A stretch of DNA of 64,000 bases, from positions 558,001 to 622,000 of the forward strand of contig NZ_JAGSYG010000002.1 of NCBI RefSeq assembly GCF_025685655.1, in the 5' to 3' direction. The stretch comes from Acidicapsa ligni. Lineage in GTDB: Bacteria > Acidobacteriota > Terriglobia > Terriglobales > Acidobacteriaceae. The stretch's first letter is position 1. Every line of letters starts with the position of its first letter. Made by a program: the position numbers and the translations under genes. The notes under the pieces are model-generated. The model made no database searches, was not told the origin of the DNA, and saw only the letters and a program-made list of their open reading frames with translations. Shown piece by piece: positions 60,145 to 62,846 of this stretch.

Positions 60145-60184
60145 TATAGGCCGCATCTCCGATGCTGAGAATGCATCGCCTATA
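60145..60184. terminator. Possible hairpin between converging genes
   Basis: TATAGGC (60145-60151) and GCCTATA (60178-60184) form an outer stem, with an inner GCATC/GATGC pair at 60153-60165. It spans the 36 bases between the ArsR-type gene and the end of the exporter gene. No T-tract. Confidence 0.3.
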
Positions 60185-61265
60185 AAGTCCAGATGCGATT
60201 GGTGCCAATAACAAGGCCTAGCGTCAGTACCGCAATCAGTACCTCACCCAGAACTCCGACTGCGAATGGTTTGAATCCCTGCCGGGAAAGTTCGCGAAAA
60301 TTCGTCTTCAATCCCACTCCTGCAAATGTCAGCAGAAAAGCCCATCGCGATAAATTGGCAAGACTCTTTATCTGTCCTGCATCAAACACACCCATCGAAA
60401 CCACCAGGGATATCAGTAGAAATCCCAGCACAAATTTGGGAAACTTCTGCCATAGAAACGCCGCCTTGTTGCCGACCGATCCCGCTTGTCCCTTGCGCGC
60501 CCAGTAAATTGCATAACCCAACACGACAAAGCCGATCAGTGCATTTCTGCATGTCTTTGTAAGGATCGCGACCTTGCCCGCACTATCGGAAAACAAAGCG
60601 CCAGCGGCCGTGGCTTCTGCCGTATTGTCTACTGCCAGGCCTGTCCAAATTCCATACGCATGATCGCTGAGGTGAAGCGCGCTACCCACGAGTGGAAAAG
60701 CCACGAGCGAAATAGCTCCCAAAGCAAGAATGGCTGCAATCGCAAACGAGGAATCCTCATCGTCTGCGTCGATCGCACCTTTGGCTGCAATGATGGCTGA
60801 CACACCACACACCGCTGACCCAATCGCCAGCAGGTGGATCAGCTTCGGCCTCAGTCCAAAAGCCTTGCCCAGCGCAGTCATCAACAACAGCGCCCCACCA
60901 ATCTCAACGAACACTAGTAACAGGCTGATGCCTCCCAGCTTGCGAATATCCGCAACCAGAAATCGCGAGCCGAGCAACACGATCCCCGCCTTCAACCAGA
61001 ACTCGTAAGTATCAACGCCCGCGCTGAAAATAGCAGGCAGCTTCACCAGGTTGCCAATCAGCAGTCCAATGACAATTGCCCACAACACATACTCAATATT
61101 GGGGAAAACAATGTGATGCGTCTTCGTGTATCCATTGATCGATTGCTCAATCAACTTGGCCGCGTAGCCAATCACAGCTAGCAGCAGAATGCCGGGGATC
61201 AGTCCAATCGCACGGACCAGTGGACCCTGTGTTTTACTTTCTATCGTTGCAGCGTTCGTCTTCAT
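60180..61265 (-). CDS. Putative sulfate-exporter family membrane protein (YeiH/UPF0324, PF03601-like)
   Basis: 361 residues from ATG 61265 (GAGAGAATCCA upstream). About ten hydrophobic spans. Typical parts: IVIGLLIGNLVKLP, ETWLKAGIVLLG-like (YEFWLKAGIVLLGSRF), LAIGSAVCGVSAIIAAKGAI, GLAVDNTAEATAAGALFS and TFAGVGLKTNFRELSRQG. The family is annotated as sulfate exporter; evidence for the transported species is limited, and the E. coli member is linked to sulfite stress. Preceded at 27 bases by a 46-residue membrane miniprotein and, further up, by a Cys-codon leader and terminator, which suggests control by cysteine supply. Confidence 0.88.
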   Translation of the reverse strand: MKTNAATIESKTQGPLVRAIGLIPGILLLAVIGYAAKLIEQSINGYTKTHHIVFPNIEYVLWAIVIGLLIGNLVKLPAIFSAGVDTYEFWLKAGIVLLGSRFLVADIRKLGGISLLLVFVEIGGALLLMTALGKAFGLRPKLIHLLAIGSAVCGVSAIIAAKGAIDADDEDSSFAIAAILALGAISLVAFPLVGSALHLSDHAYGIWTGLAVDNTAEATAAGALFSDSAGKVAILTKTCRNALIGFVVLGYAIYWARKGQAGSVGNKAAFLWQKFPKFVLGFLLISLVVSMGVFDAGQIKSLANLSRWAFLLTFAGVGLKTNFRELSRQGFKPFAVGVLGEVLIAVLTLGLVIGTNRIWTL

Positions 61266-61292
61266 TGGATTCTCTCGTTTACACAAACTGTC

Positions 61293-61433
61293 TTACCAGG
61301 GAACGTTCTGTAGTACGCCGGTCTTCACAAGCAAAGCAAGCAATAAGGCAAGCAGAACAGCCCACCAATCAAGCGTCATCCAGGACGCATTCTTGTTTGG
61401 CGAAGCCGTATTGATAACAGGATCATTCGACAT
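61293..61433 (-). CDS. 46-residue single-span membrane protein, partner of the exporter
   Basis: Begins SNDPVINTASPNKNASWM and contains DWWAVLLALLLALLVKTG, one transmembrane helix, ending LQNVPW. The ATG at 61433 has GAGGAGA 7 bases upstream, a strong site. It sits 27 bases before the YeiH-type gene and after the attenuator terminator. From memory, longer members of the exporter family start with a similar DWWAV-type helix, so this may be a split-off N-terminal helix that works as a separate subunit; this is inference. Confidence 0.7.
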   Translation of the reverse strand: MSNDPVINTASPNKNASWMTLDWWAVLLALLLALLVKTGVLQNVPW

Positions 61434-61459
61434 CAAAATCTCCTCGATTCAAGCAATCT

Positions 61460-61503
61460 AAAAAGCAAAAGGCCCACACTCAGCGATAGCTGGCATGTGG
61501 GCC
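61460..61503 (-). terminator. Rho-independent terminator between leader peptide and exporter genes (probable attenuator)
   Basis: On the minus strand GGCCCACA (61503-61496) pairs with TGTGGGCC (61478-61471), with an inner CAGC/GCTG stem, then TTTTGCTTTTT. It lies 26 bases after the leader stop and 26 bases before the 46-residue gene. The segment GCCAGC inside it can instead pair with GCTGGC in the leader (61561-61556), and UCCGG (61506-61502) with CCGGA (61552-61548), giving a competing helix. Confidence 0.72.
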
Positions 61504-61529
61504 GGATGCAAAATCTGTCTGATGTATGT

Positions 61530-61631
61530 CTACTTCAGACTGCGACCTCCGGAACGCCAGCAGACATCCTGTCTGCAACAACAACAGTTGCAGGTGCTGG
61601 CAATTTCGAACGCACAGTATTTGCAAGACAT
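61530..61631 (-). CDS. Cysteine-rich leader peptide, 33 residues
   Basis: Begins MSCKYCAFEIASTCNCCCC and ends RQDVCWRSGGRSLK. Eight Cys codons in 33, four of them adjacent (codons 16-19). No ribosome site; its ATG lies just where transcription should begin from the TTGACG/TATAAA promoter, so the mRNA is probably leaderless. It ends 26 bases before a terminator in front of the exporter genes. A peptide with such a Cys run directly before a terminator is the hallmark of an amino-acid attenuator. Function as a product in itself seems unlikely. The assignment is inference from layout. Confidence 0.55.
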   Translation of the reverse strand: MSCKYCAFEIASTCNCCCCRQDVCWRSGGRSLK

Positions 61632-61658
61632 ACCGCGTTTATATCGGTATGTCTTGCA
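61622..61658. promoter_or_regulatory. Perfect 14-base inverted repeat over the leader promoter
   Basis: TGCAAGACATACCG (61622-61635), 9-base spacer, CGGTATGTCTTGCA (61645-61658). The dyad covers the -10 box and the start point, so it looks like an operator for a dimeric repressor. It could alternatively fold as a hairpin, but most of it lies upstream of the start point. Confidence 0.6.
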
Positions 61659-61667
61659 GTTCGTCAA
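61632..61667 (-). promoter_or_regulatory. Sigma-70-like promoter for the leader/exporter transcript
   Basis: On the minus strand TTGACG (61667-61662), 18 bases, TATAAA (61643-61638). The expected start point is at about 61631, the A of the leader ATG. Confidence 0.6.
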
Positions 61668-61699
61668 CAAAGAAACGTTAAAACTCACGCGTAGCCATC

Positions 61700-61749
61700 C
61701 AAAACAAAGGCCCATTTGTTTCGTTATGAACGAAATGCAAATAGGCCTT
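61700..61749 (-). terminator. Strong terminator after the deoxyhypusine-synthase-like gene
   Basis: On the minus strand AAGGCCTATTTG pairs with CAAATGGGCCTT (12 pairs, one G-U), extended by TTTCGTT/AACGAAA with a CAT loop, and followed by TGTTTT. It separates this gene from the downstream attenuator promoter. Confidence 0.75.
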
Positions 61750-61770
61750 CGGTCCTGATTTTGGCTGGAG

Positions 61771-62739
61771 CTACCAACCCAGAACGTAAGCAAAAATCAG
61801 CGGCGCTACAATCGTCGCGTCCGATTCAATGATGAACTTCGGTGTATCGACACCAAGCTTGCCCCACGTAATCTTCTCGTTTGGCACCGCGCCCGAATAC
61901 GAACCATAGCTCGTCGTCGAATCGCTGATCTGGCAGAAGTAAGCCCAGAGAGGCACATGCTCGCGCTGCAAATCCTGATGCAGCATCGGGACCACGCAAA
62001 TAGGAAAGTCGCCTGCAATACCGCCCGCAATCTGAAAGAACCCCAGTGGCGTTTCTGCAGTCGTCTTCGTGTACCACTCCGCCAATTCCATCATGTACTC
62101 AATGCCCGTGCGCACCGTGTGAACCTTCTTCACATCGCCAGAGATGCAGTGCCCGGCATACATATTGCCCAGCGTTGAATCCTCCCAGCCCGGTACAAAC
62201 ATGGGCAGATTCTTTTCCGCCGCAGCCAGCAACCAACTGTTCTTGGGGTCGATCTGATAAGAGTCCTTCAAGTCTCCCGAAAGCAAAATCTTGTACATGA
62301 ACTGATGCGGGAAGTAGTGCTCATTTGCCTGGTCTGCCCTCATCCATTCCTTCAGCACAACCTTCTCAATACGCCGCATCGCCTCCATCTCCGGGATGCA
62401 GGTATCGGTCACGCGATTCATATGCCGGCTCAGTAACTTGACCTCATCTTCTGGAGTCAGATCGCGATAATTCGGCACGCGTTCATAGAAGTCATGTGCG
62501 ACAAGATTGAAGACATCCTCTTCAAGATTCGCGCCCGTGCAGGTAATCGCATGAACCTTGTCCTGACGGATCATCTCCGCCAGGCTTAAACCCAACTCGG
62601 CCGTACTCATCGCGCCGCCCATAGTTACAAACATCTTGCCGCCGGACTCAACCAGCTTGATGTAACCCTCCGCCGCATCCACCAGCGCAGCGGCATTGAA
62701 ATGACGATAATGATGTTTAACAAATTCCTTAATCGACAA
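61771..62739 (-). CDS. Deoxyhypusine synthase-like protein
   Basis: 322 residues from TTG 62739, chosen because AAGGAG stands 6 bases before it; longer frames from 62769 or 62784 lack a site. Rossmann-like fold with MFVTMGGAMSTAELGLSLAE and HAITCTGANLEEDVFNLV, and the C-terminal NEKITWGKLGVD, where the Lys matches the lysine that carries the butylamine intermediate in deoxyhypusine synthase. Bacteria lack eIF5A, so members here are thought to act in polyamine chemistry (homospermidine-like synthesis) or on unknown substrates; this is not established for this branch. Cytoplasmic. Confidence 0.85.
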   Translation of the reverse strand: MSIKEFVKHHYRHFNAAALVDAAEGYIKLVESGGKMFVTMGGAMSTAELGLSLAEMIRQDKVHAITCTGANLEEDVFNLVAHDFYERVPNYRDLTPEDEVKLLSRHMNRVTDTCIPEMEAMRRIEKVVLKEWMRADQANEHYFPHQFMYKILLSGDLKDSYQIDPKNSWLLAAAEKNLPMFVPGWEDSTLGNMYAGHCISGDVKKVHTVRTGIEYMMELAEWYTKTTAETPLGFFQIAGGIAGDFPICVVPMLHQDLQREHVPLWAYFCQISDSTTSYGSYSGAVPNEKITWGKLGVDTPKFIIESDATIVAPLIFAYVLGW

Positions 62740-62846
62740 AGCGGAACTCCTTACGGCAATCCATGCCATCCCTGAAATTATCACAACTCTGTGACTGAGC
62801 CTGCGTTTTCACCGCGTCAATCGCGGTAAATCTTACCATCGCCATA

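Follow-up and report, generated by a model that had tools for sequence, protein, structure and literature searches.

A putative cysteine-responsive transcription attenuator upstream of yeiH and of sulfite/nitrite reductase genes in Acidobacteriota

The classical attenuator, that of the trp operon of Escherichia coli, brings together a leader peptide, an antiterminator and a terminator. In the case of cysteine, the uORFC-8-2 motif has been predicted to act, by means of Cys codons, as a transcription attenuator of cysS in the Rhodobacterales (Brewer et al., 2021, PMC8632094), and in mycobacteria leaderless frames of contiguous Cys codons control the translation of what lies downstream (Canestrari et al., 2020, as described in the available text of PMC9031893, PMC9094748 and PMC13236596). 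In addition, according to the excerpts of the respective papers, ribosomes occupy a Cys-rich frame in M. smegmatis (PMC4633059), and Cys leader peptides without terminators have been predicted in Actinobacteria (PMC1262725). As regards the Acidobacteria, a paper of 2010 gives, in its available part, almost no predicted attenuator with an assigned function (PMC2965389).

The locus described here lies in a stretch of 64,000 nucleotides of Acidicapsa ligni (hereafter the window), where a Cys-rich leader precedes a yeiH-like transporter gene, and on the grounds of its sequence and computed pairing we consider it very probable that this leader is a ribosome-mediated, cysteine-responsive transcription attenuator. 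With uORFC-8-2, the leaders found in Acidobacteriota share an upstream ORF with Cys codons, a pair of stems, a terminator-like U run and the proposed attenuation at low Cys-tRNA; in contrast, that motif, in the text available, stands solely before the cysteinyl-tRNA synthetase of Rhodobacterales and has two tandem Cys codons, whereas the Acidobacteriota leaders have longer Cys runs, a probably near-leaderless start, and the reductase, yeiH or cysD as targets (PMC8632094). With the mycobacterial polycysteine ORFs they share being short, Cys-rich and placed before sulfur or cysteine genes and, probably, being leaderless or nearly so; the mycobacterial ORFs respond to cysteine supply by translational attenuation (PMC9031893, excerpt) and have no conserved terminator hairpin as far as the excerpt of PMC1262725 goes, whereas the Acidobacteriota leaders have a terminator together with an antiterminator as its alternative. 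Finally, the trp attenuators of Corynebacterium and Streptomyces likewise combine a leader peptide with control codons, an antiterminator and a terminator, although the Acidobacteriota leader carries Cys codons, probably begins at the very 5′ end of the mRNA or close to it, and belongs to a different phylum (PMC1262725, excerpt).

No description of a cysteine attenuator in Acidobacteriota was found among the matches listed, in the open-access literature and the few subscription papers covered. Thus, as attenuators of this amino acid are known in mycobacteria and predicted in Rhodobacterales, the kind is known, and it is the lineage, the target genes and the combination of a near-leaderless start with an intrinsic terminator that look new. 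An understudied soil phylum would in this way gain a concrete and testable mode of amino-acid control, in which leaderless Cys frames and attenuation by an intrinsic terminator would be united in one device.

Anatomy and computed switch of the window leader

On the minus strand of the window the order is promoter, Cys leader, terminator, a membrane ORF of 46 aa, and yeiH. The promoter, of sigma-70 type (61638..61667, minus strand), has TTGACG as its −35 box (61667-61662), a spacer of 18 nt and TATAAA as its −10 box (61643-61638), and the ATG of the leader (61631-61629) lies 6 nt downstream of the latter, in such a way that the leader ORF (61530..61631, minus strand) would be near-leaderless. 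This ORF has 33 codons, 8 of them for Cys (3, 6, 14, 16-19 and 24), with codons 14-19 as the control run, and its peptide is MSCKYCAFEIASTCNCCCCRQDVCWRSGGRSLK. The intrinsic terminator (61460..61503, minus strand) begins 26 nt past the leader stop and consists of a hairpin of −22.6 kcal/mol (61503-61471) followed by a T tract. Clustered codons for the end product, and a terminator between the leader and the first gene, are hallmarks of the classical attenuators, and both are found here. A simple scan for promoters and terminators reported neither of the two elements, because its rules accept only T as the last of the six −10 bases and only loops of 3-8; Rfam gave no match up to an E of 1 in the window at 60900-62000, nor at the gathering score in 15 relative loci. 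The fold of the 175-nt leader RNA is better than that of all 200 out of 200 dinucleotide shuffles (z −3.74).

Three short segments are involved in the proposed choice, all on the minus strand. Segment 1 (GCCAGC, 61596..61601) forms the core of a helix protecting segment 2 (GCUGGC, 61556..61561), the 5′ strand of the putative antiterminator, which is adjoined by UCCGGA (61553-61548), and segment 3 (GCCAGC, 61489..61494) lies within the terminator hairpin. An earlier note on this DNA, made from the letters alone, had already placed these segments (as starting at 61601, 61561 and 61494), as well as the promoter leading into a 33-codon frame with 8 Cys and the terminator 26 nt after its stop, followed by putative exporter genes; this arrangement was confirmed, with the 46-aa ORF lying between the terminator and yeiH, and chance is a most unlikely source of it.

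The pairing was computed for nascent RNA, in which the 3′ arm of the terminator is absent and the RNA is counted as free from 12 nt beyond the A-site. Without a ribosome, segment 2 pairs with segment 1 with a probability of 0.92, and with segment 3 with one of only 0.07; with the A-site at codons 16-19, P(2:3) becomes 0.998-0.999, and the CCGG:CCGG helix, put forward in the note as a helper (CCGGA/UCCGG), goes from 0.05 in the free RNA to 0.72 in the stalled one. On the whole the computed switch follows the account given in the note, which the comparison with relatives supports. The idea that a ribosome stalled at codons 14-19 frees segment 2 for segment 3 holds for codons 16-19, but at codon 14 P(2:3) is only 0.57. 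Similarly, segment 1 does act as a protector, but its GCCAGC alone is insufficient: with stalls at codons 3 and 6, when the RNA is free from 61613 and 61604 respectively and GCCAGC is left free, P(2:3) is 0.90 and 0.89. As the 2:3 pairing forms even with GCCAGC free, the protecting helix also takes in the leader's first 20-30 nt, and an account based on segment 1 only is too simple. In other words, and within the limits of a static model, early stalls at codons 3 and 6 would favor read-through too.

In the complete RNA at equilibrium, the terminator of the window leader wins both ways (0.997 free, 0.992 stalled), so that the mutual exclusion of antiterminator and terminator according to the position of the ribosome is computed in the nascent RNA but is unseen in the equilibrium fold of the full RNA. 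Over the 55 leaders considered below, the terminator has a mean equilibrium probability of 0.96 when free and 0.88 when stalled, dropping by more than 0.1 on stalling in 12 of the 55 and rising in 2. Since the finished terminator wins at equilibrium in both states, the choice must be kinetic. Known attenuators likewise depend on timing.

Recurrence and pairing among the leaders of relatives

The sample of yeiH relatives comprises at least 84 loci, with an identity of at least 54%, and in 8 of the 84 listed (L001, L002, L047, L082, L086, L091, L098 and L105) a Cys-rich frame and a terminator precede the small ORF and yeiH. In the 1200 nt scanned upstream of these 84 loci (less at contig ends) there are 10 Cys-dense short ORFs in sense, 8 of them with the attenuator layout, as against 3 in antisense, with a script-found terminator after 4 of the 10 and after none of the 3; the regions downstream of yeiH, of double length, hold 4 and 9 such ORFs, none of them followed by a terminator. 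In many of the other loci yeiH follows same-strand genes of one cluster (c1), which in L031 are those of the reductase, of a protein with a siroheme-synthase N-terminal domain and of uroporphyrinogen-III methyltransferase.

The leader is also found before the gene of this sulfite/nitrite reductase: in 20 loci of genomes reached via yeiH (L116-L119 and L121-L136; L120 and L137 are truncated at contig ends), in L142-L144, where the reductase is more distant, and in L098/L115, where leader, yeiH and reductase follow each other in this order. One reading of the reductase upstream regions was made without L112, L113 and L138-L141. In a sample of the phylum with 297 genomes, 49 have the reductase at E ≤1e-60, and the leader is present in 25 of the 28 close loci examined (L145-L172), among them L145, which duplicates L116; it is missing from L155 (in the window's own genome), L161 and L166. 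In another six close loci (L184-L189) the leader is always present, together with a script-found terminator, and among 17 more distant loci (L190-L206) no comparable leader with terminator was found; in two of these, the mycobacterial L195 and L196, a frame ending in VCSCSCPA, without terminator, resembles the known mycobacterial kind, and in L202 a Cys frame far upstream looks unrelated. Taking as Cys-dense an ORF with at least 3 Cys in 8 codons, one lies in sense upstream of the reductase in 43 of 47 loci (the duplicate L145 included), as against 7 of 47 in antisense, the expectation from base shuffles being 3.1. The reductase gene of the window's own genome (L113:3469-5163, minus strand, contig C4) is apart from yeiH, and a Cys leader was sought before it and not found, unlike in most of the close relatives examined. 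Genome G090, for its part, has two putative attenuators, one before yeiH (L105) and one before the reductase (L128).

With regard to the enzyme itself, the L098 protein has the NIR_SIR domains of Pfam, and in NCBIfam it scores best with the NirA family, at 367 bits (cut-off 523), and with ferredoxin-nitrite reductase, at 361 bits (cut-off 594), CysI being weaker. As all these matches are below the cut-off, it is the context of siroheme, cysteine and yeiH that suggests that the reductase acts on sulfite.

For joint analysis, 55 leaders, 47 of them upstream of the reductase gene and 8 upstream of yeiH, were chosen by eye from the scans, as were the start codons; L145 is outside this set, L129 was left out of the promoter and upstream counts, and L164 was taken in only from the peptide and promoter count of the 55 onward. 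The 55 leaders encode 55 different peptides, with 3-10 Cys each and with CC in every one, and over their 1509 residues Cys amounts to 21.0% and the next, Arg, to 10.6%; the Cys codons recur in the relatives in leaders that have diverged widely. A promoter with at least 9 of the 12 consensus bases is found in 61% of the 54 leaders scored, as against 2.1% of base shuffles, and in the 33 leaders with the best promoters the start codon always (33/33) lies 6-11 nt after the −10 box, which makes a leaderless or almost leaderless start probable. Ten additional leaders were found later, and the total of approximately 65 natural variants makes a comparison of structure and function possible.

A hairpin with a T-rich tail follows the leader in 47 of 54 by script (4 of them re-delimited by hand) and, by eye, in the remaining 8 of the 55, so that the terminator, too, recurs in the relatives. 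This bears on the possibility that control takes place in translation, with the ribosome on the Cys frame gating the next ribosome-binding site and the hairpin being incidental: the leaders are near-leaderless and Cys-rich, like those that the available text describes in mycobacteria (PMC9031893), and the cysD candidate of the window's own genome has no clear terminator. However, an incidental hairpin would fit poorly, firstly, with the T-tailed hairpins after the leaders, and secondly, with the fact that the hairpin varies by compensation between sister species, and we regard this possibility as very unlikely. Between the window and the sister species (L002) three neighboring pairs of the terminator have changed in a compensatory manner (CG->TA, AT->GC, CG->TA), and in the aligned leaders the terminator is paired in 98.9% of cells (39/500 shuffles). 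Compensatory changes, one of the signs by which the note proposed to judge the attenuator, are thus present in the terminator, but L002 lacks the exact segment 1 GCCAGC and has a C-A mismatch in its 2:3 helix.

Just as unlikely would be a DNA-binding regulator as the main control, with leader and terminator secondary. It would act at a perfect 14-bp inverted repeat (61622..61658, arms at 61658-61645 and 61635-61622), which flanks the −10 box and overlaps the promoter and the start of the leader frame. The palindrome is absent from L002, which has the right arm in common but not the left, and this suggests local copying by template switching; judging from the sequence, the palindrome may be a recent copy of that type. 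As an operator of a regulon it was rejected: the repeat has two exact copies in the genome, both at this site, and its matches with up to 2 mismatches number 26, as against 38 for the reversed control, so that it does not resemble a regulon site.

Returning to attenuation, the pairing of each leader with its own segments was compared with that of permuted ones. For 2:3 the mean of the own duplex is −19.44, against −16.42 when permuted (sd 0.41, z −7.3), and for 1:2 it is −28.27 against −23.21 (sd 0.53, z −9.5), in both cases over the 55 leaders and with 0 of 10,000 permutations matching the own energy. Compared with dinucleotide shuffles of segment 2, the 2:3 pairing reaches a p of 0.05 in 22 of 47 leaders (row L125 of this test being mis-delimited), with 0.03 for the window leader and 0.105 for L002, and it is no better than the shuffles in 9 of the 47 (L047, L082, L117, L146, L149, L157, L159, L171 and L172). 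With a stall at the first Cys of the run, 36 of the 55 leaders gain three or more 2:3 pairs in the nascent RNA; in 19 the change is smaller, and no leader loses as many as 3 pairs. As the removal of 5′ RNA can only free segment 2, this test is weak alone, and the permutations provide a better control.

Across an alignment of 13 leaders, 91.6% of the antiterminator cells are paired (10/500 shuffles as high), as against 21.5-55.1% when slid; 7 cells are changed on both sides (3/500) and the covariation is 0.109 (7/500), while the number of pairs changed on both sides (183/500) and that of pair types (271/500) are not above those of the shuffles. One antiterminator pair occurs in C-G, A-U and U-A variants. 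Alignment A2 leaves out L001 and L002, which are misaligned in segment 2 of A1. That the leader might instead encode a functional Cys-rich peptide, one that binds metal or has a redox role, and have a terminator of its own but no attenuation, is scarcely credible in spite of its very high Cys content, as all 55 peptides are different, shared ends such as SGQ..FRT fall on RNA pairing segments, and the pairing tests favor a function of the RNA. That the leaders lie before sulfur genes does not count as separate evidence here, because most loci were found via those genes.

YeiH and the proposed mechanism

The proposed target of the window attenuator is the yeiH-like transporter gene (60180..61265, minus strand), which matches Pfam PF03601 over the cut-off (E 6.4e-75) and TIGR00698 below it (110 bits, cut-off 232.6). 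The ORF of the 46-aa membrane microprotein (61293..61433, minus strand) is conserved upstream of yeiH: a motif such as LSLDxWAVxxALxxALLVRxGVxxxIPW was found ahead of yeiH in 57 of the 84 listed loci, which is a lower bound. Its product, for which Pfam and NCBIfam gave no match at an E of 0.001, may be a partner of YeiH.

According to the mechanism that we propose, the RNA polymerase would start at the leader AUG or just before it, and the leaderless or near-leaderless mRNA would be translated. With ample Cys-tRNA, the ribosome would clear the Cys run, segment 1 and the rest of the leader's 5′ part would pair with segment 2, and the terminator would then end transcription ahead of the small ORF and yeiH. 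When Cys-tRNA is scarce, the ribosome would stall in the Cys run and cover this 5′ part, leaving segment 2 free for segment 3, and this pairing in the nascent RNA would delay the terminator in such a way that the polymerase would read through. YeiH would thus be made while sulfate assimilation is running and sulfite, a toxic intermediate, appears. As the arrangement recurs before putative genes of sulfite reduction in numerous soil-dwelling relatives, it is probable that these cells switch on the making of cysteine by the stalling of ribosomes at low cysteine.

The note had objected that expression at low cysteine would fit uptake or sulfur salvage better than export. This objection is weakened, because in relatives yeiH clusters with reductase and siroheme genes and, according to the available text on Salmonella, protects from sulfite (PMC12880088). 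In that bacterium yeiH is the primary driver of sulfite resistance, with a promoter that responds to sulfite via YeiE; the same excerpt calls this resistance distinct from cysteine assimilation, finds the sulfite reductases dispensable and leaves the direction of transport not established (PMC12880088). The simplest idea, given the protection in Salmonella and the shared gene cluster in Acidobacteriota, would be that YeiH handles the sulfite arising from sulfate reduction, which runs at low cysteine, although in Salmonella yeiH is under YeiE, in the text available, and the acidobacterial yeiH considered here would be under a Cys attenuator (PMC12880088). A poorly understood transporter would thereby be tied to sulfite reduction under cysteine control, and its substrate and direction become testable.

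A possible wider regulon

A covariance model (R1), built from 15 leaders of one subgroup with most Cys codons omitted, has a single strong match in the window's own genome, to the window leader (E 8.2e-10), and another five that are weak (E 0.02-2.8). Among the latter, L178 has a frame that starts with TTG, LSAPWLTGECEVRCRC, and a hairpin resembling a terminator, and no convincing leader was found at the others. Among 247 genomes of the phylum sample, R1 matched in two, that of the window and G218; the locus in the latter (L181) was rejected, as none of its frames has 4 Cys within 8 codons.

In a sample of the family, with 43 loci of PAPS-reductase-domain and ATP-sulfurylase genes (L207-L249), the script found candidate leaders in the flanks of 4 and none in those of 39. 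A Cys leader with hairpin and T tract precedes cysD, so assigned by NCBIfam, at L208:1153 (plus strand), a putative cysD, assigned by a PF01507 match, at L211:1148, and a tetrapyrrole methylase gene at L216:423, the coordinates in L211 and L216 being those of the reverse complement. Before cysD of the window's own genome, the candidate leader MLCISQNGYCCCLSKSSTGVLISL (L214:1182, plus strand, contig C10) has a promoter-like sequence; no clear terminator was found after it, and the fold downstream is no better than that of shuffles (43/200 as good). On the strand opposite cysD in L208, a Cys leader with terminator (L208:2668, reverse-complement coordinate) precedes an ORF with carboxypeptidase-regulatory-like domains, presumably as in TonB-type receptors, which makes a gene for the uptake of sulfur compounds possible.

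The targets of the putative attenuators thus include siroheme and cysD genes. Elsewhere, cysteine supply is controlled by protein regulators such as CysB and CymR. There is, in our judgment, an even chance that the cysteine supply of Acidobacteriota is steered by near-leaderless Cys attenuators of transcription that form a dispersed regulon, in which charged tRNA-Cys, sensed by way of the ribosome, would replace such proteins, and whose members would be the sulfite reductase-siroheme-yeiH operon, yeiH alone, cysD, the tetrapyrrole methylase gene and possibly the outer-membrane receptor-like gene.

As a separate observation, the gene directly upstream of the Cys leader in the window (61771-62784, minus strand) belongs to the deoxyhypusine-synthase family (PF01916), which is best known in eukaryotes and archaea.
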